Shown here: positions 1,460 through 10,952 of the stretch, in pieces
How positions within the stretch are numbered: position 1 is the first letter of the stretch
Layout of the letters: each line of letters starts with the position of its first letter
The notes under the pieces: generated by a model
The model's database searches: none
Seen by the model: only the letters and a program-made list of their open reading frames with translations
Told to the model about the DNA's origin: nothing
Assembly (NCBI GenBank): GCA_030657355.1
Contig: CP131056.1
Location: 1,570,501 to 1,634,500, forward strand
Length of the DNA: 64,000 nucleotides
Source: Radicibacter daui
GTDB taxonomy: Bacteria; Pseudomonadota; Alphaproteobacteria; Radicibacterales; Radicibacteraceae
Direction: 5' to 3'
Program-made: the position numbers and the translations under genes

Positions 1460-1492
1460 GGTCCGGATCGCGGCCTTGTGGATGGGGTGAAA

Positions 1493-3001
1493 ATGGACAA
1501 GCAGAACTGGCCGCTGGCAGTGCAGGTGGCCGCGGATTTTGCCGCGGAGTGGAAGGCCGATGCCCCCGGCGGTGCGATTGTCGCCTTCGATGCTTCGGGC
1601 ATACGCTTTGCCCATGCCGGCGGGCTGGAGAGCCTTGCGACCCGCGCGCCCTTCACGCCGGCCAGCGTGGTGCGCTACGCCTCTGTTACCAAACATGTCT
1701 TCTGCGCCATGGTGCTGGCCCATCCGACGCTGATCGGTCTGGAAGACAGATTGGGTAAACACCTGCCGGAACTCTCGGAGCCGCTCGCCTCCGTCACCGT
1801 TGGCCGTGCGCTCAATATGACCGGCGGCCTGCCGGATGTACGCGAATGCCTGACGCTGCTGGGCCTCTCCGTCTATTCCCACACCGATGCCGAGGCGTTG
1901 CTGAAGTATCTCGCGCGGCTCACCCGCCTCAATTTCGAGGCCGGCACCGAGATTTCCTATTCCAATACCGGCTACCGGCTTGTCGAGGCGGCGCTGGAGA
2001 GCAAGGGCGTGCGCTTTGACGACTGGGTGCAGAAGGTCATCTCCGGCCCGCTGCGCATTGCGATGAAGGCACCGGATGTATGGGACGATGCCGTGCCCGG
2101 CCTTGTGCCGGGTTACTGGCACTCCGGCGAAAAGTGGCAGCTGGCGGCTGCGGGCCTGCATATTTCCGCTTCCGGCAGCCTGACGGGCAGCGCCGAGGCG
2201 CTGGCCAAGTGGCTGAAGGCCCTTGTTGCGGGCAATGGGCTGCTCAACGGCCGGTTCCCGGCGCTCTCGGCCCGGCGCACGCTCAAGGATGGCCGGCCGA
2301 CGGGATACGGGCTCGGCCTGCGCCGCTCGCTTCTTGGCGGGCGCGAGCTGCTGGGCCATGGCGGTTCTCACCCCGGCTACAAGACGCATTTCCTCATCGA
2401 GCCGGAAAGTGGAGCAGGCGTTGTCGTCGTCACCAACCGGGAAGATACCAACACTTACAAGATGGCGCTTGGCACCATGGCCGCGCTGCTGGACGAACCC
2501 CTGCCGGCTACGAGTGACATTCTGGGTGAGGGGACATGGGTCAGCGAGAGCGGCCCGTGGTGGATCACCGTCAAGGGCAGCGCCGTCAATTATATCGACA
2601 GCGAAGACATGCTTTACGCGGATGGCGAGGGCTGGGTTTCTTCCCGCTCCCCGACAGCACCGCTGCGGCTTCGCCGTGACGGTGATGCGCTGGTGGGCGA
2701 GGTAGGCCATGTGGTCCGTCGCTTCCTGCCGGCAGCAGGCGGCAAAGTCCCGGCCACGCTTTCCGGGCGCTGGGAATCGCCGGAAGGGGCCGTCTTCGAC
2801 ATCGTCGACGGGGCGCTCATCCAGGGCATCGGCCCCTGCCGGCAGGTCATGCCGCTTGAGGCGCTGGGCGGCGGGCGATATCTCTATACCCTCGTTGACG
2901 GACCCTGGCGCAAACGCGTCTGCCTGCATCAACTGGCGGCAGATCGTGTGGAGCTCGTGCTCAGCCGGGCCCGGATGATTGAGTACACGCGCGCCCGCTG
3001 A
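1493..3001 (+). CDS. D-aminopeptidase of the S12 (penicillin-recognising, beta-lactamase-fold) family
   Basis: Predicted serine aminopeptidase releasing N-terminal D-amino acids from peptides, as in Ochrobactrum DAP. With this start it has 502 residues, close to DAP. The catalytic motifs fall where the family has them: SVTK at about residues 64-67, YSN at 156-158 and HGG at about 289-291. The long C-terminal part (about residue 335 onward) fits the extra beta-barrel domains of DAP. I prefer ATG 1493, which has a GGGG ribosome-binding site just upstream; a GTG at 1478 is the alternative. It sits directly after the peptide ABC ATPases. A DD-peptidase or esterase role cannot be excluded from sequence alone. 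Confidence 0.85.
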   Translation: MDKQNWPLAVQVAADFAAEWKADAPGGAIVAFDASGIRFAHAGGLESLATRAPFTPASVVRYASVTKHVFCAMVLAHPTLIGLEDRLGKHLPELSEPLASVTVGRALNMTGGLPDVRECLTLLGLSVYSHTDAEALLKYLARLTRLNFEAGTEISYSNTGYRLVEAALESKGVRFDDWVQKVISGPLRIAMKAPDVWDDAVPGLVPGYWHSGEKWQLAAAGLHISASGSLTGSAEALAKWLKALVAGNGLLNGRFPALSARRTLKDGRPTGYGLGLRRSLLGGRELLGHGGSHPGYKTHFLIEPESGAGVVVVTNREDTNTYKMALGTMAALLDEPLPATSDILGEGTWVSESGPWWITVKGSAVNYIDSEDMLYADGEGWVSSRSPTAPLRLRRDGDALVGEVGHVVRRFLPAAGGKVPATLSGRWESPEGAVFDIVDGALIQGIGPCRQVMPLEALGGGRYLYTLVDGPWRKRVCLHQLAADRVELVLSRARMIEYTRAR

Positions 3002-3077
3002 CAAGCGGGCGCCGCCGCGCGCCCGGACCCGGCCATCCCGCCAGGAAAAGGGGGCCGGGTTTGGGGGAGTGCGCGGC

Positions 3078-3974
3078 ATGGAGATGAAGTGGCTGGAGGA
3101 TTTTGTGGCGCTCGCCGAGACGCTCAATTTCTCCAGGGCCGCCGAGCTGCGCCATGTCACCCAGTCTGCCTTCAGCCGCCGCATCAAGCAGCTTGAGGAG
3201 TGGGTGGGGGCAAGCCTTGTCGACCGCGCCTCCTACCCCTCGCGCCTCACCGATGCCGGCCAGCGTTTTGTGCCGGTAGCGCGGGAGACGCTGCGCCAGC
3301 TCTACCACACCCGCCGCGAGCTGCAGGTGGAAGAGGGCTCCGACGCGCGCACCGTGCGGGTTACCGCGCTGCACACGCTCTCCCTCACCTTTTTCCCGGA
3401 CTGGTTTGCCGCGCTCTCGCAGCGGCTGGGGCCGCTGGTGTCGATCATGAAGCCGGATTCCGGCAGCATGGAAGAGAACCTGACGTCGCTGGTGGAGGGG
3501 GAGTGCGACTTCCTGCTCACCTATGCCCATGACGATGTGCCGATGCTGCTCGACCCCGAGGCCTTCGAGCATCGCAGCGTGGGCAGCGAGAACATCGTTG
3601 CCGTTTCCGCGCCGGATGCGAACGGGGCGCCGGCGCACCGCATCGAGGCCTCGCGCAAACCCTTTGCCTATGTCGCCTACCAGCGCGGCTCGTTCTTCGG
3701 GCAGCTGCTGGATGGTGGCATCGCGACCCGCCTGCCACCCTTCGAGCGGGTGCATGTGGGCAGCATGTGCGTGGGCCTCAAGGCCATGGCGACGGCGGGC
3801 TGGGGCGTTGCCTTCGTGCCGGAGAGTCTGGCCGCCATTGAGCTGGAACAGGGGCGGCTTGTGCGGGCTGCGGGCCGGGAATGGGATATCCCCGTCGATA
3901 TCCGCCTTTATCGCTCGCGCAAGAACCGCCGGCAGGTGGTCACCCGCCTCTGGTCGGCGCTGGGCCGGAGCTGA
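3078..3974 (+). CDS. LysR family transcriptional regulator
   Basis: LysR-type regulator of 298 residues. The N-terminal winged helix-turn-helix is clear (MEMKWLEDFVALAETLNFSR, then HVTQSAFSRRIKQLEEW), followed by a periplasmic-binding-protein-like effector domain to the C-terminus. The open frame extends upstream into the aminopeptidase gene, but that extension is low-complexity Arg/Pro/Ala sequence. ATG 3078, with a GGGGGAG ribosome-binding site about 8 bases upstream, begins exactly at the HTH. It lies co-directionally after the D-aminopeptidase and converges on the D-amino-acid aminotransferase gene. By position it is the likely local regulator of D-peptide use; its effector is unknown. 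Confidence 0.9.
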   Translation: MEMKWLEDFVALAETLNFSRAAELRHVTQSAFSRRIKQLEEWVGASLVDRASYPSRLTDAGQRFVPVARETLRQLYHTRRELQVEEGSDARTVRVTALHTLSLTFFPDWFAALSQRLGPLVSIMKPDSGSMEENLTSLVEGECDFLLTYAHDDVPMLLDPEAFEHRSVGSENIVAVSAPDANGAPAHRIEASRKPFAYVAYQRGSFFGQLLDGGIATRLPPFERVHVGSMCVGLKAMATAGWGVAFVPESLAAIELEQGRLVRAAGREWDIPVDIRLYRSRKNRRQVVTRLWSALGRS

Positions 3975-3992
3975 GGCGGGTATTTACGGTGT

Positions 3993-4856
3993 TCAGATCG
4001 CGGTCTGGCGGGCGTTTTCGAGATAAAGCTCGCGCAGGCGACGGATGACCGGGCCCGGCTTGCCGTCGCCGACCGGGCGGCCGTCGATGCTCACCACCGA
4101 GACGACGAAATTGGAGGCGGAGGTGAGGCCGGCTTCCTGAGCGCCAAACGCCTCTTCAAGCGTGAAGGGCCGCTCCTCGACCGTCAGCCCTTTTTCGCGG
4201 GCGAGGGCCAGCGCGGCAAGGCGGGTACAGCCCGGCAGGGTCTTGCTGCTGCTGCCCCGGGTGATGAGGCGGCCATCGGTCGTTACGATATAGGCGGTGG
4301 AAGAAGCACCTTCCGTCACCACGCCCTCCTCGACCATCCAAGCCTCGCTGGCTCCCCTGGCTTTCGCCTCACGCTTGGCCATCACCTGCGGCAGCAGGCA
4401 GACACTCTTGATATCGCGTCGGGCCCAGCGCAGGTCCGGTACAGTGGCGACAGCAACACCCTTTTCAGCCGAGGCCACATGCTCAAGCCGTTTTTCCTGG
4501 GTGAAGAGCAGCAGCGTGGGTTTCAGATCGTCCGAATAGAGAAAATCGCGGTCCGCCGCGCCGCGCGTCACCTGCAGATAGACGAGGCCTTCGGTGAGAT
4601 TGTTTTCGCGCACGAGGCGGCGCTCGATCTCCACGATCTCATCCGTCGTAACCGGCAGGTGGATGCCGATTTCGCCGACGCTGCGCTTCAGGCGGGTGAG
4701 GTGAAGCGCGGCATCGATCAGCTTGCCTTCCAGCACTGCGGTTACTTCATAAATGCCGTCACCGAAGAGAAAGCCGCGGTCGAAGATCGACAGGCTGGCT
4801 TCTTCGGCCGGCAGGAAGGCGCCGTTGAGGTAGACGATGCGGGGCTGGCTGGACAT
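3993..4856 (-). CDS. dat: D-amino-acid aminotransferase (PLP fold type IV)
   Basis: Fold-type IV PLP enzyme of 287 residues, predicted to transfer the amino group of D-amino acids (classically D-alanine) to 2-oxoglutarate. The N-terminus YLNGAF and FDRGFLFGDGIYEV are hallmarks of the D-alanine aminotransferase/BCAT family, and RRDIKSVCLLPQVMAK places the Schiff-base lysine at about residue 150. The segment GVVTEGASSTAYIV binds the cofactor phosphate. The short length and the DIKS motif favour D-alanine aminotransferase over branched-chain aminotransferase. It lies 22 bases downstream of the DmpA-family peptidase on the same strand, so the two are probably co-transcribed. Confidence 0.87.
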   Translation of the reverse strand: MSSQPRIVYLNGAFLPAEEASLSIFDRGFLFGDGIYEVTAVLEGKLIDAALHLTRLKRSVGEIGIHLPVTTDEIVEIERRLVRENNLTEGLVYLQVTRGAADRDFLYSDDLKPTLLLFTQEKRLEHVASAEKGVAVATVPDLRWARRDIKSVCLLPQVMAKREAKARGASEAWMVEEGVVTEGASSTAYIVTTDGRLITRGSSSKTLPGCTRLAALALAREKGLTVEERPFTLEEAFGAQEAGLTSASNFVVSVVSIDGRPVGDGKPGPVIRRLRELYLENARQTAI

Positions 4857-4878
4857 CGGGGGACCTTGTTAATTCGGG

Positions 4879-5931
4879 TTATTCTGGTTTTGAAAACAGC
4901 TGCCGGACGGCATCGGGATCGAGCGGCGGCACGCGGGCGGTTTTGCCGCTTGCCGCGTTGAATCCTTCCATGGCTGTTGCCATGGTGAGGGAGTTGAGGA
5001 TGGCTTCTTCTGCCGCCTCGATCACCGCCTCGAACAGCGGGGAGACGGCATCGTTACCAAGCTCGGGATAGGTCGCCGCCATCTTGCGCCGCTCCGGCGT
5101 GCGGCGAACGGCGGAGGCGGTTGAAAAAGCGAGCGCATAATCGCCCGAGCCGTTGCTGAGTGCGGCGCCGGTACGGGCCAGCCCGCCAAAGGCACGTTTG
5201 GCAAGGCGCTCCAGAGTGCGACCGCCGAGCGGGGCGTCGGTTGCCACGATCATCACGATGGAACCGTCGCGGTCATGCTGTGGCGGTACCCGGTAGGGGC
5301 GGCCGCCGATCAGCAAATCGCCGCCATAGTTGGATTGCACCAGCACGCCCAGCCGGTATGTCGCCCCGCCGGCTTTCACCTCGCGGGAGGCCGTGCCGAT
5401 GCCGCCCTTGTGGCCGAAGGCAACGGTGCCGGTGCCGGCACCCACCGCGCCTTCCTCAACCGCGCCGGATGAGGCGGCGCCGATGGCCGCCAGCATTTCG
5501 TCAACGCTCGGCCGGGCGGCCCGAATGTCATTAAGGCGGCCATCATTGGTCTCGCCGACCACGGCATTCAGCGAAATGACCTTCTCATTGCCGCTTTGGG
5601 CCAGCGTGTAGCGGTTGATCGCCTCGATGGCGCGGCCGACGGCGAGGGTGTTGGTCAGCAGGATCGGCGTTTCGATCTCGCCCAGTTCGGCGATCTGCGT
5701 TGCCCCGGCAAACTTGCCATAGCCGTTGAAGACGGCGAGCGCGGCCGGCACCTTGTCCTGATAGAGATTGCCGCCATGGGCCAGGATGGCCGTGGCCCCG
5801 GTGCGGGTACGATCCCCCTCCACCAGCGTCACATGGCCGACGGCGACACCTTCCACATCGGTGATCGCATTCAGCGGCCCGGTGGGATAAGTGCCTGACG
5901 GAATTCCAAGTTCGCGAACGCGCCGGCGCAT
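4879..5931 (-). CDS. DmpA-family (S58) self-processing aminopeptidase (L-aminopeptidase/D-esterase)
   Basis: Homologue of DmpA, an N-terminal-nucleophile enzyme that cleaves itself into alpha and beta chains and then hydrolyses N-terminal residues of small peptides, D-amides and D-esters. The family N-terminus GPLNAITDVEGVAVGHVT is present, and the autocleavage site is readable as NGSGDYALAFS, with Gly261-Ser262 as the predicted scissile bond and Ser262 the nucleophile. At 350 residues it is slightly shorter than DmpA. It heads a two-gene minus-strand operon with the D-aminotransferase. Its start codon lies inside a ~100-bp element found twice more nearby (see leader copies). Confidence 0.88.
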   Translation of the reverse strand: MRRRVRELGIPSGTYPTGPLNAITDVEGVAVGHVTLVEGDRTRTGATAILAHGGNLYQDKVPAALAVFNGYGKFAGATQIAELGEIETPILLTNTLAVGRAIEAINRYTLAQSGNEKVISLNAVVGETNDGRLNDIRAARPSVDEMLAAIGAASSGAVEEGAVGAGTGTVAFGHKGGIGTASREVKAGGATYRLGVLVQSNYGGDLLIGGRPYRVPPQHDRDGSIVMIVATDAPLGGRTLERLAKRAFGGLARTGAALSNGSGDYALAFSTASAVRRTPERRKMAATYPELGNDAVSPLFEAVIEAAEEAILNSLTMATAMEGFNAASGKTARVPPLDPDAVRQLFSKPE

Positions 5932-6036
5932 GAACGGCCCCTGACTGGCAGCGGAAAGACTGTGCGGCGGACGTTATGCCCATCGACCGGCAAAGGGCAT
6001 CTCAAAGTTGGAATAAGGCTAGACCGGGCGCGCAAG
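5926..6036. repeat. Leader repeat copy A (between dmpA-like gene and first membrane paralogue)
   Basis: First of three copies of a roughly 100-bp element. The shared core reads GCGGCGGACGTTATGCCCAT, then a variable CGG-AAA segment and CATCTCAAAGTTGGAATAAG. Here it lies between divergent genes, so it probably carries promoters for both the peptidase operon (minus) and the membrane protein (plus). It overlaps the first bases of the peptidase gene, whose ATG is the complement of 5929-5931. Function is not established; conservation across three copies suggests a promoter or 5' UTR element. Confidence 0.75.
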
Positions 6037-6152
6037 TCTGGCAGGTTTCGCCACATCTTTTGGCTGTTTCTCCTCCCGTTCGGCGGCTGTTTTTGGCAAA
6101 ACATCCTGCGGCGGTGGCATTGCTACGGACTGCCGTAGGCATTGGGGGCATT

Positions 6153-7001
6153 TTGGTTGGAGCGATCCTGAGGGCCGGGTTCGGCGTATGGCGCAGAAGC
6201 AGGGCCGAGATCATTCAGTTTGGCTTCTTGCCTCAGGGGGTCGCTACGGGATTGCTTCTTTATGTCAGCTGGCTCGGCTCCCGCCTTAATGCCGATGACT
6301 GGGGTATTGGCGCGATGCTTGGCGTTTTCGGCGTGCTGCTGGTCGCATGGGGACTGCACTCGCTCGTAATCAGCCGTTGGGCGCGTTTTTGTCTGTTGGG
6401 GGAGTGGGGGGCCGACTGGTGGTGGTCGATCGTGCCGGATGCTGCGGCCCGCCGGACGCTGGTGGCCCAGCTTCGCGTCTTGGTGTTGATCCTTCTGGTG
6501 ATGGTGCCATTGGGTTTTGCCGCTGGTTGTGCAACCGCAGTGCTGTCGCAGGCGATTGGAAATTCGCCAGTAATCAATCTCCTGCCGCTATTATTATTCC
6601 CCGTCGCCCTTTGCATCGGAATAAGAAACGCTGCCTATCCAGTGGCCCGGGCAATCAATCTTAACGAGAGTATCTCTTCGGTCTGGCAGGCCTTAAAAGG
6701 CCGGCGATCCTGGTCGCTGCTTGGCTCTGTGGTCCTTGCCGGACTGATCTATCTCTTGGTGACGGTTCTTGCCGGGATGGCGACCGGCTTCCTTCTCGGG
6801 TTTGGCGCTGCCCTGGCAGGCGGCGGCCAGCCGATGATCTCCATCACGATACTGGTGGCGCGAGGTGTTGCCGGGTTTCTGGTTAGTTTGTTGTTTACGC
6901 CCGTTTTTGTGGTGATGATTGCCTACGCGTTGCGGGAGGCTCTGATTACGCGGGAGAAGGCGCGGGCCGCATCGGAAGCAGAACGGGCGACGGAAGAGTA
7001 G
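6153..7001 (+). CDS. Membrane protein of unknown function, tandem paralogue 1
   Basis: Predicted integral membrane protein of 282 residues, not assigned to a named family. About five or six hydrophobic segments are visible (for example LLLYVSWLG, LVLILLVMVPLGFAAG, VVLAGLIYLLVTVLAG and VSLLFTPVFVVMIAYAL). It shares with the next two genes an amphipathic opening (ILRAGFGVWRRSRAEIIQFG), the block SRWARFCLL..WWS..PDAAARR and the segment YPVARAI. I place the start at TTG 6153 after a GGGGG ribosome-binding site, because it matches the length of its paralogues' N-termini. The frame is open back to an ATG at 5976, but that part overlaps the leader repeat and is not protein-like. Confidence 0.7.
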   Translation: MVGAILRAGFGVWRRSRAEIIQFGFLPQGVATGLLLYVSWLGSRLNADDWGIGAMLGVFGVLLVAWGLHSLVISRWARFCLLGEWGADWWWSIVPDAAARRTLVAQLRVLVLILLVMVPLGFAAGCATAVLSQAIGNSPVINLLPLLLFPVALCIGIRNAAYPVARAINLNESISSVWQALKGRRSWSLLGSVVLAGLIYLLVTVLAGMATGFLLGFGAALAGGGQPMISITILVARGVAGFLVSLLFTPVFVVMIAYALREALITREKARAASEAERATEE

Positions 7002-7100
7002 CCCTGACTGGCAGTGGGGAGACGATGCGGCGGACATTATGCCCGTCAACCGGTAAAGAGCATCTCAAAGTTGAAACAAGGCCCGCTAGGGTGTGCAAGG
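7002..7100. repeat. Leader repeat copy B
   Basis: Second copy of the leader, beginning at the base after the stop codon of paralogue 1. It carries the same ordered blocks (CCCTGACTGGCAG, GCGGCGGACATTATGCCCGT, GAGCATCTCAAAGTTGAAAC) with scattered substitutions. It lacks the GCGCATGA-CGGCC segment at the left edge of copies A and C. About 110 bases separate its end from the proposed TTG start of paralogue 2. Confidence 0.72.
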
Positions 7101-7208
7101 TCTATTCAGGCCATTGTTTGGGTGCTCATCGTTTGGCGGTTTATTGTTTCTGATAAATCCCGTAAAGGTGGCGACGCTGGCCATGTCTCTAGAAAATTGA
7201 GGACTACC

Positions 7209-8096
7209 TTGATCGGGGCACTTTTAAAGGCGGGTTTTTCGATTTTAAGAACCAACGTTCGGGAGGTCCTGCGGTTTGGGGCGCTGCCTCAAATCTTGTC
7301 CACCGTCATCGCGCTGGGCGCGAATGTCGCTTTTTTTCTGCAAAGGGTGCCGGGATGGCCGGAATGGCTGCTTGCTGTGGCCGTGTTTGCCTGGATAACC
7401 GGCTTTGTCGTGCAAAGTCTGATAGTGGGGCGGTGGGCAGCTTTCTGTCTGGCAGAACCGCCGATGGTTTCCTGGTGGTCACTTAGACCGGACGCGACCA
7501 CGCGCCGGGCTGTTGGCGGCAATATAATTTTGTCGCTCGTTCTTTTTGGTGCGGCAATTCCGGTCGGTTTTATCATCGGCGGACTTTGTTTTGCTCTTAA
7601 ATACGTCACCGGGTCTGTTTTGCCGCTTCAGGGAGCGCCGGTGCTGGTTGTGCTTGCCGTCTCCTATCTTGGAATCAGGCTTCTGCCTTATGTGCTAGCC
7701 CGCTCAGCTGGCCTCAATCTGAAGCTTCGTGATGTTTGGCGACTGATGGGCGGGCGCAATGTTTGGGCTCTGTTGATCGCCCTGTTGCTTGCGTCCCTGG
7801 CCTTTCTGGTCGTGGTCTTGCCGATCCAGTTTGGTGCGACGGCGCTTATCGCAATGCTTGCCGGTGCCGCGCATCCAGACGCTATCAGCTTGTCGCTGGT
7901 ATTTCTTTATTTGACGCCAATGGCGCTGGTCACGATTGCCACCATATTTGCTGTTCCTGTGTTTTTGGTCATCACGGCCAATGCGCTGAAGGCGGCGATG
8001 AACCCCCGTATGTCAGATGGAGCCGGGAAAACGGAACGAGTAGAGCCTTCGATAGAGATGCCTCCGTCTTTTTCTGCTTCCGGAATAGCTGATTGA
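7209..8096 (+). CDS. Membrane protein of unknown function, tandem paralogue 2
   Basis: Second tandem paralogue, 295 residues, predicted multi-spanning membrane protein. Conserved landmarks align with the other two copies: LLKAGFSILRTNVREVLRFG at the N-terminus, GRWAAFCL..WWSLRPDATTRR in the middle, then LLPYVLARSAGLNLKLRDVW. The proposed start is TTG 7209, with TGAGGA about 6 bases upstream; TTG 7197 is the alternative. The longer upstream frame from 7014 reads through the leader repeat and lacks similarity to the paralogues. It is the most diverged copy, with a longer hydrophilic C-terminal tail. Function unknown. Confidence 0.68.
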   Translation: MIGALLKAGFSILRTNVREVLRFGALPQILSTVIALGANVAFFLQRVPGWPEWLLAVAVFAWITGFVVQSLIVGRWAAFCLAEPPMVSWWSLRPDATTRRAVGGNIILSLVLFGAAIPVGFIIGGLCFALKYVTGSVLPLQGAPVLVVLAVSYLGIRLLPYVLARSAGLNLKLRDVWRLMGGRNVWALLIALLLASLAFLVVVLPIQFGATALIAMLAGAAHPDAISLSLVFLYLTPMALVTIATIFAVPVFLVITANALKAAMNPRMSDGAGKTERVEPSIEMPPSFSASGIAD

Positions 8097-8145
8097 ACTG
8101 ACGGCCATATCGTCAGAGGGAGAGGGAATGTTCGCTTTGGCTGCA

Positions 8146-8256
8146 GCGCATGAGCGGCCCCGGACTGGGAGCGGAAAACTGTCCGGCGGACGTTATGCCC
8201 ATCGGTCGGTAAAAGGGTATTTTAAAGTTGGAATAAAGCCAGGCCGGACGCGCACG
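8146..8256. repeat. Leader repeat copy C, with vestige of a dmpA start
   Basis: Third copy of the leader, matching copy A more closely than B. It includes the left-edge segment GCGCATGAGCGGCCCCGGAC, which in copy A contains the reversed start codon of the DmpA-family gene. Read on the minus strand, copy C opens ATGCGC and stays similar to the peptidase start for about 22 bases, then diverges and hits a stop after 12 codons. This suggests the duplicated unit included the dmpA start region. Confidence 0.72.
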
Positions 8257-8311
8257 AAGGATGGAAAGGTCTCCCAAAGGTAGCGATGTTGGGGTGAGAC
8301 GTAAGAGGGAG

Positions 8312-9175
8312 ATGTCGGTGTTCGGGACCATCATGAGGGCCGGTTTTGGCGTGTTGCGTTTCAACCGTGCTGAAATTTTCCGCTTCGGCTTGCTGCCGCA
8401 ACTCGTTGTCGCCGCTCTTACCGTCTATGTCGGCTGGCTGACATCACGGGAAATGGCGGAAGGTATGGGCGCCGCACAGGCGTTGGGGGTTGCCTGTGTC
8501 GCCGTGCTGGCCTGGGTGTTCCAGTCTCTGGTTTTCAGCCGTTGGGCACGTTTCTGCCTGCTCGGCTCGGAGCCGGTTACAGGATGGTCGCTGGTGCCGG
8601 ACGCTGCTGCCCGTCGCACGATGAGCGCGCAGCTCGTGCTGTTTCTGCTTCTCGTGGGGGTGACGATCCCGTTTGGCCTCGTTCTCGGAGGGTTGATATT
8701 TGTCCTGCGAGGTGCGGGTGGCCCGCCCGCCTTTCTGCAATTCATGCCGTTGCTTGTCGGCCTTGTTGCGCTCGTTGCCGGCCTCAGGCTGACGCCCTAT
8801 CCGCTCGCCCGGGCCGCCGGCCTCAAGAAAACCATCGGTTCCGTCTGGCGGGTGATGGGCGGCTCCCGGGTCTGGCCGCTTCTCGGCGCCCTGATCGTCG
8901 CCGGGTTGGTGCAGCTTCTTCTGAAGGCTGTGATTGGTGGCCTGATCGGGCTGGCGGTCGGCCTTGGAGCAAACCTGTCGGGGGACACCGTGAGCCCGAT
9001 GCTGGTCGGCACCGTTCTGGCAGCGCAGGGTGTCGCCGATCTGGTGACGGGCCTGTTCTTCTATCCGGTCTTCATCGCCATGATCGCTTGTGCCTTCAAG
9101 GCCGCGCTGGCGGCGCGGGATGCGCCGGTTGCTGAACCTGAGCCACCGTCGCAAGAGGCTGAACCGCTGCCCTGA
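8312..9175 (+). CDS. Membrane protein of unknown function, tandem paralogue 3
   Basis: Third tandem paralogue, 287 residues. It begins MSVFGTIMRAGFGVLRFNRA and repeats the family landmarks FSRWARFCLL, GWSLVPDAAARR and YPLARAAGLKKTIGSVWRVM, with hydrophobic segments between. It is closer to paralogue 1 than to paralogue 2. ATG 8312 follows a GAGGGAG motif that is rather close; an in-frame ATG at 8261 is the alternative. The C-terminus ends in a short acidic, proline-containing tail. A strong bidirectional terminator follows. No enzymatic motif is visible; a membrane or envelope role is all I can infer. Confidence 0.75.
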   Translation: MSVFGTIMRAGFGVLRFNRAEIFRFGLLPQLVVAALTVYVGWLTSREMAEGMGAAQALGVACVAVLAWVFQSLVFSRWARFCLLGSEPVTGWSLVPDAAARRTMSAQLVLFLLLVGVTIPFGLVLGGLIFVLRGAGGPPAFLQFMPLLVGLVALVAGLRLTPYPLARAAGLKKTIGSVWRVMGGSRVWPLLGALIVAGLVQLLLKAVIGGLIGLAVGLGANLSGDTVSPMLVGTVLAAQGVADLVTGLFFYPVFIAMIACAFKAALAARDAPVAEPEPPSQEAEPLP

Positions 9176-9191: not shown

Positions 9192-9226
9192 AAAAAAGGC
9201 GCTTCGAAACCGAAGCGCCCTTTTTT
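9192..9226. terminator. Bidirectional intrinsic terminator between membrane paralogue 3 and metG
   Basis: Perfect 9-bp stem GGCGCTTCG / CGAAGCGCC with an AAAC loop (9198-9219), flanked by six A on the left and six T on the right. It can terminate both convergent transcripts. Confidence 0.92.
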
Positions 9227-9251: not shown

Positions 9252-10952
9252 TCAAGCCTTGCCGCCGTACTTTTCCGTCAGCTCTGCCACGCGGGCATCG
9301 TCGATCTTGGCGACGAGCACGTCCGGCAGGGTGAACGCATGGCCGGCCGGGATTGCGCGGATGAGGTCGCCAGTGCTCTCCGTCGGCCAGGGCTGGTTTT
9401 CGGGCAGGCCGAGGGCCGCCAGCATTTTGCCCGCCAGCGTCGGGATGACCGGGGCGGAGAGGATGGCGAAGAGGCGGATCAGCGAGAAGGCGCAGCGCGT
9501 GATGGCGGCGGCGCGCTCCGGATCGGTCTTGAGCGCTGTCCACGGCGCTTCGTCGGCCAGATACTGGTTGCCCAGCACCCAGATGGCGCGCAGCTCGGCC
9601 AGCGCCTTGCGGTACTGGATGGCCTCAAGGTTCTCCGTCAGTGCCTTGATGCGTTCGTCGAGGGCCTTTGCCAGCGCTTCTTCCGCCGGGCCGTAGTCGC
9701 CGCCTGCCGGCACCGCATCACCGAACTTGGACTGGGTGAATTTCAGCGTGCGGTTCACGAAGTTGCCGAGCACGTCGGCCAGATCCTTGTTCACCTGGCC
9801 GGCAAAGCCTTCCAGCGTGAAGGAGCTGTCATCCGTCTCCGGTGCATTGGCGATCAGCACATAGCGCCAGTAGTCCGCCGGGAATTCGGCAAGGGCCTGG
9901 TCGGTAAAGATGCCGCGGCGCTGGCTGGTGGAGAACTTGCCGCCATACCAGGTCAGCCAGTTAAAGCCCTTGATGTAGTCAACGAGCTTCCATGCCTCGC
10001 CCGAGCCCATGATGGTGGCGGGGAAGGACACGGTGTGGAAGGGGATGTTGTCCTTGGCCATGAACTCCGTGTAACGCACGTCGTCCGCCTCGAACCACCA
10101 GCGCTTCCAGTCGCGCTTTTCTTCCGGCGCGGCATCGGCCCATTCCTTGGTGGCGGCGATGTACTCGATAGGCGCATCGAACCACACGTAATAAACCTTG
10201 CCCTCATAACCCGGCCGGCCCACCGGCACGCCCCAGGCGAGGTCGCGGGTGATGCAGCGGTCGCGCAGGCCTTCCTTAAGCCACTTCTGGGCGATGGAGG
10301 TGACGAGAACCGGCCAGTCCTTTTCCTTGCTGTCGATCCAGCTCTGGATCTTCGCCTCGACTTCGGGATTGTCGAGCTTCAGGAACAGGTGGCGGGTGTC
10401 GCGCACTTCCAGATTGGTGGAGCCAGAAACCGCCGAGCGCGGATTGATGAGGTCCGTCGGGTCCAGGAGCTTGGTGCAGTTCTCGCACTGGTCGCCGCGT
10501 GCACGCTCATAGCCGCAATGCGGGCAGGTGCCCTCGACATAACGGTCCGGCAGATAGCGACCGTCATCGATCGAATAGATCTGCTGGATGGTGCGCTCTT
10601 CAATCAGGCCATTGGCGTTGAGCATGGCGGCGAAATGCTGCGTCAGCTCATAGTTCTGCTGGCTTGAGGAGCGACCGAAATGGTCGAAGCTGAGGCCGAA
10701 GCGCTTGTAGATATCCTTCTGGATCTCATGCTGCTCGGCGCAATAGGTCGCCACATCCTGGCCCGCGGCAATCGCCGCCAGCTCGGCCGGCGTGCCGTGT
10801 TCGTCGGTTGCGCAGATGAACATCACCTCGTTGCCCCGTGCCCGCATGAAGCGCGCATAGACATCCGCCGGCAGCATGGACCCGACAAGGTTGCCGAGAT
10901 GCTTGATGCCATTGATGTAGGGGAGCGCGCTGGTGATGAGGGTGCGGGCCAT
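9252..10952 (-). CDS. metG: Methionyl-tRNA synthetase
   Basis: Class I aminoacyl-tRNA synthetase charging tRNA-Met, 566 residues. The N-terminus [20 protein letters not shown] contains the HIGH-equivalent HLGN. A zinc-binding knuckle reads [17 protein letters not shown] at about residues 142-158, and the KMSKS loop appears as KFSTSQRRG. The C-terminal anticodon-binding helical domain is present. There is no appended C-terminal tRNA-binding (EMAP-like) domain, consistent with the shorter form of the enzyme. It is transcribed convergently to the membrane paralogues and ends at a shared terminator. Confidence 0.96.

Follow-up and report, generated by a model that had tools for sequence, protein, structure and literature searches.

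Why does a non-coding block of about 100 nt stand before each of three diverged membrane genes in Radicibacter daui? The block lies in a stretch of 64,000 nt (contig CP131056.1, positions 1,570,501 to 1,634,500; hereafter the window, to which all coordinates refer). The original prediction took it for the leader part of a leader-plus-gene duplication, conserved on account of a shared regulatory function. The genes and the three copies are as follows, with the basis of each assignment in brackets.

1478..3001, plus strand: D-aminopeptidase-like serine hydrolase (match below cut-off), a conserved member of the cluster (family model and the clusters of relatives)
2979..3974, plus strand: LysR-type cluster regulator (HypT being the nearest NCBIfam model, with a match below cut-off)
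3993..4856, minus strand: dat, D-amino-acid transaminase (NF005209, above cut-off)
4879..5931, minus strand: dmpA, peptidase family S58 (PF03576, E 3e-103)
5926..6036, minus strand: copy A, predicted dmpA promoter-operator and 5' UTR, lying upstream of membrane gene A as well (repeat finder, orthologous promoters)
6153..7001, plus strand: membrane paralogue A, likely TTG start (ORF list, paralogue alignment)
7002..7099, plus strand: copy B, upstream of gene B (repeat finder, alignment)
7209..8096, plus strand: membrane paralogue B, likely TTG start (ORF list, paralogue alignment)
8146..8256, plus strand: copy C, upstream of gene C, with a former dmpA start/Shine-Dalgarno edge (repeat finder, alignment)
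8318..9175, plus strand: membrane paralogue C, likely GTG start, ATG 8312 possible (ORF list, paralogue alignment)
9252..10952, minus strand: metG, last of the gene series listed in the window

The starts of the membrane genes were assigned from the paralogue alignment; with TTG 6153, TTG 7209 and GTG 8318 as starts, the elements stop short of genes A, B and C by 116, 109 and 61 nt, respectively. dat follows dmpA at a distance of 22 nt. Homologues of the LysR-type protein align from about residue 27-34 on, and this is where its true start lies. Similarity of the membrane paralogues (6153-9175) to PF10110 (GPDPase_memb) is weak and sub-threshold, the matches of A and B (E 4e-5 for B) both falling below the cut-off. 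The third-position G+C content of genes A (0.68) and B (0.58) is lower than that of gene C (0.74). A strong intrinsic terminator with a 9-bp stem and a T run (9198-9219) lies between the convergent membrane gene C and metG.

The repeat finder and a search of the 5.06 Mb genome agreed with the original prediction on three collinear copies, one before each membrane paralogue. The genome search returned them at E 1e-54 (self), 4e-28 and 5e-20, the next match being at E 0.9, and a sequence profile built from the three found no fourth copy in the 5.06 Mb genome. Local alignment scores were 102 (A/B), 136 (A/C) and 52 (B/C), with shuffle maxima of 30-33, and identity over columns 12-111 was 78/99, 84/100 and 68/100 for the same pairs. 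Copy C differs from A by two single-base indels. Copy B abuts the stop codon of gene A directly and carries no dmpA edge. A dispersed intergenic repeat or small mobile element would also be a compact unit of about 100 nt in uniform orientation, and the imperfect GCGC ends of copies A and C would suit it, but the genome holds just three copies, and one of them, copy A, is the ancestral dmpA promoter according to the cross-genus footprint described below. We consider such an element very improbable, and rejected a dispersed repeat or MITE on genome-wide multiplicity.

Copy A spans the divergent start of dmpA, as had been noticed originally, the start codon lying inside the element. The following features were located on the minus strand of the three copies.

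5929..5931, minus strand: dmpA start codon, inside copy A (ORF list; homologues align from residue 2)
5938..5942, minus strand: Shine-Dalgarno-like AGGGG of dmpA (sequence)
5973..5978, minus strand: possible -10 hexamer CATAAC of dmpA (TA invariant, gap-free in orthologues)
5996..6015, minus strand: conserved motif TATTCCAACTTTGAGATGCC upstream of dmpA (orthologue matrix, genome pattern search)
6032..6035, minus strand: distal TTGC, end of the repeat (invariant in orthologues)
7059..7078, minus strand: degenerate motif in copy B, TGTTTCAACTTTGAGATGCT (orthologue matrix, pattern search)
8216..8235, minus strand: degenerate motif in copy C, TATTCCAACTTTAAAATACC (orthologue matrix, pattern search)

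The dmpA start is about 4 residues shorter here than in homologues. TATTCCAACTTTGAGATGCC is the only match without mismatch in the genome, and the distal TTGC lies 20 nt upstream of TATTCC, counted from start to start. Plasmid-borne dmpA orthologues of Neorhizobium, Ensifer and Sinorhizobium are 71-77% identical, with dat, LysR and serine hydrolase genes arranged likewise. In these clusters the sequence before dmpA bears the signature TTGC-N16-TATTCC.TTTTT....TG.C-N19-TA, which is free of gaps over 66 nt. Nine orthologous promoters were compared, and they share 23 invariant columns. Copy A (minus strand) matches 19/23 of these positions, copy B 15/23 and copy C 15/23 ungapped, random 66-mers of the window matching 5 on average. 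When about 128,000 window positions were scored with a weight matrix made from the orthologues only, copy A came first, C second and B third. The motif occurs about 55-125 nt upstream of dmpA at no more than 5 mismatches in 10 of 11 clusters of the same type and at 6 in the eleventh (L019); it is absent from nine more distant dmpA loci without close dat, LysR or hydrolase relatives. Further motif sites in the genome showed no excess over the reversed-pattern control, a sigma-70 scan detected no promoter in the element, and the stretches with the clusters of this type yielded no membrane paralogue. On the strength of the cross-genus match at 19/23 positions we assign copy A as the predicted promoter-operator of the dmpA-dat operon together with its 5' UTR; its two ends are the start codon (GCGCATG) and the distal TTGC (GCGCAAG). 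For this copy the idea that the element is regulatory DNA was thus well founded.

A structured RNA leader or riboswitch would be another regulatory role for the block. RNAalifold gave a consensus of 26 pairs, three of them changed on both sides, but the covariation term was unfavourable (+0.56), on neither strand did any copy outdo its shuffles in folding (z -0.01 to 1.44), and Rfam returned no match. We rejected a cis-regulatory RNA for want of a stable covarying structure and an Rfam match, and regard it as highly improbable. It is just as hard to believe that the block codes, or formerly coded, for an upstream peptide or an N-terminal extension. Open frames do connect the element with genes A and B, and a single codon phase holds 7 of the 12 core differences between A and B; such a phase bias, however, arises by chance in 20% of trials, the frames into A and B differ, and copy C has frame-shifting indels and stops. 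With no coding signal, a coding block was rejected.

On the Ensifer, Sinorhizobium and Neorhizobium plasmids the four-gene cluster (1478-5931 in the window) has differing upstream neighbours, as if it were a movable catabolic cassette. On the plasmid of Neorhizobium sp. EC2-8 (L033, 4001-8505) dmpA, dat, lysR and the hydrolase gene each align in at least two pieces, which suggests that frameshifts or sequencing errors affect the whole cluster. Neither the genome set, in which this genome alone represents the order, nor two scans of GTDB contigs, nor the plasmids gave a relative of the membrane array, and 385 genomes of the class contained one distant, weak homologue of the membrane paralogues. 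metG, used as an anchor for orthologous loci, yielded distant metG copies alone. DNA matches to a Shinella replicon, to an alphaproteobacterial genome and to a viral contig lay in unrelated sequence or were at chance level.

How old are the leaders relative to the genes behind them? The membrane proteins A, B and C show pairwise identities of 29, 46 and 41%, and the four-fold degenerate sites of their genes are 39, 36 and 34% identical, compared with 30-32% for shuffled sites; these sites are saturated or nearly so. Divergence among the leader copies is several-fold lower than at such neutral sites. Leader identities of 79-84% (A/B, A/C) next to saturated gene sites mean that either most leader positions are constrained, or the leaders are younger than the genes. 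The claim that the duplicated unit was leader plus gene, including the edge of dmpA, can be kept for the edge, which is present in C; the leader-plus-gene unit fits poorly with the mismatch in divergence (leaders about 80-85%, proteins 29-46%, four-fold sites near shuffled). Short of very strong constraint on the leader, it and the gene look unequal in age, and the leader copies, their age being judged from one genome, are probably younger than the gene duplications.

Strong constraint would be at work if leader and gene had been duplicated together long ago, and selection had since kept all three leaders under one regulator of dmpA and the three membrane genes. We consider this unlikely, but it would accommodate several observations: leader identity of this order where the genes are saturated, the lack of any indel between A and B across 98 nt, and the fact that the repeat stops at functional boundaries (start codon, distal TTGC), an outcome also expected under constraint. 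There are also remnants of leader homology downstream of the main element, 14/16 nt between A and B (6054-6069 / 7127-7142, P=0.013) and a second one between B and C (7158-7180 / 8272-8292, P=0.007). These short traces suggest some older common origin of the leaders, and it is possible that an old unit duplication was followed by re-copying of the upstream block.

The pattern of changes in B and C speaks against selection on all three leaders. The operator positions, which in a shared regulon should be better kept than the rest in B and C, were not: the motif is 85% identical and the rest 83-86%, in both A/B and A/C, and copy B has changed at 4/19 conserved and 10/47 other positions. Copy C has one extra base between the motif and the -10-like TA, a spacing in which no orthologue varies, and its TTGC lacks the first T. 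Copy-unique substitutions in columns 14-94 number 1 in A, 11 in B and 9 in C, and although the counts are small, A has significantly fewer than B (p=0.006) or C (p=0.02). Having the fewest unique changes, A appears central, as the donor or as the sole constrained copy. What counts against recent copying is that the differences in copy B take up 7 of the last 17 positions (the operator spacer) vs 12 of the first 81, with GCAAG kept at the right distance.

Divided by part, copy C agrees with A at 15/16 positions of the dmpA start and ribosome site, 42/47 (89%) of the 5' UTR and 53/65 (82%) of the operator. The best-kept part is thus the one with no evident role before a membrane gene, which argues for recent copying and against an old duplication under selection. 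This part is the relic of the dmpA start recognised in the original prediction, and GCGCATGA.CGGCCCC, contiguous with the element, represents true homology with that start. The weak similarity of about 22 bases claimed beyond GCGCATGA toward the dmpA interior is not significant, 13% of shuffles scoring as well with GCGCATGA excluded. Nor could we uphold the argument that non-coding conservation between the paralogues implies a shared regulatory function: positions invariant in orthologous dmpA promoters are no better kept in B and C, and in C it is the part unable to serve dmpA that is kept best. Shared regulation of the three membrane genes is possible. After an old unit duplication, short-tract conversion from A, or selection on all three copies, could explain the downstream traces, the functional ends and the spacer pattern of B.

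We consider it somewhat probable that the leaders of B and C arose by recent promoter copying or conversion from A. From copy A, the predicted dmpA-dat promoter-operator, this segment of about 100 bases would have been copied by short ectopic duplication or short-tract conversion. B and C would be later copies, either inserted before two older, already diverged tandem paralogues or produced there by conversion. After copying, B and C would have drifted and A would have stayed fixed, because dmpA still needs it. Both the direction, from A to B and C, and the copying mechanism are what we infer from these comparisons. A more far-reaching version, which is doubtful and which we put forward tentatively, is that the full dmpA promoter-operator was copied without its gene and the tandem membrane genes joined the regulator of the D-peptide cluster; this would be regulon growth by local operator copying, with one copy still bearing the start codon of the donor.

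An activator whose gene belongs to the cluster probably drives the dmpA-dat promoter. The candidate is the LysR-type protein of the cluster, an identity that we infer; the support for this earlier suggestion is circumstantial. The motif and the LysR gene co-occur across clusters, a co-occurrence confounded by relatedness, and the invariant columns of the orthologous promoters contain no T and A spaced by 11, as in a T-N11-A box. Our literature search found nothing direct on the copying mechanism or on the regulation of the cluster.

The locus shows regulatory DNA that has apparently moved separately from the genes behind it. It also illustrates that non-coding similarity between diverged paralogues is by itself no proof of shared function, and that a cross-genus footprint separates the operator from passenger sequence. 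If copies B and C prove functional, they would provide a direct example of regulon growth by local promoter copying. As far as can be judged from sequence, this is a modest, concrete case of promoter copying within one locus, and the impression that the copies give is of drifting relics more than of an established shared switch.

It is instructive to compare the locus with known systems. The clusters of DmpA/S58 peptidase and D-amino-acid transaminase genes in Ensifer, Sinorhizobium and Neorhizobium consist of the same four genes, but in R. daui the cluster lies beside a membrane-gene array and metG, whereas its plasmid relatives have other neighbours upstream of dmpA. In catabolic promoters controlled by LysR-type proteins, the site is recognised by a T-N11-A box with dyad symmetry. 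The similarity to these is that the conserved site has two parts, TTGC and then TATTCC..TTT..TG.C, that its end is close to a weak -10, and that a LysR-type gene belongs to the conserved cluster; the predicted site described here differs from them by having no invariant T-N11-A box and by standing before dmpA, not beside the LysR gene. The copying of promoters or regulatory regions also recalls horizontal regulatory transfer, a term that occurs in PMC5890482. In both, a piece of regulatory DNA travels by itself, without the coding sequence that it comes to precede; in R. daui, by contrast, the copying would have taken place within one locus, between neighbouring tandem genes.
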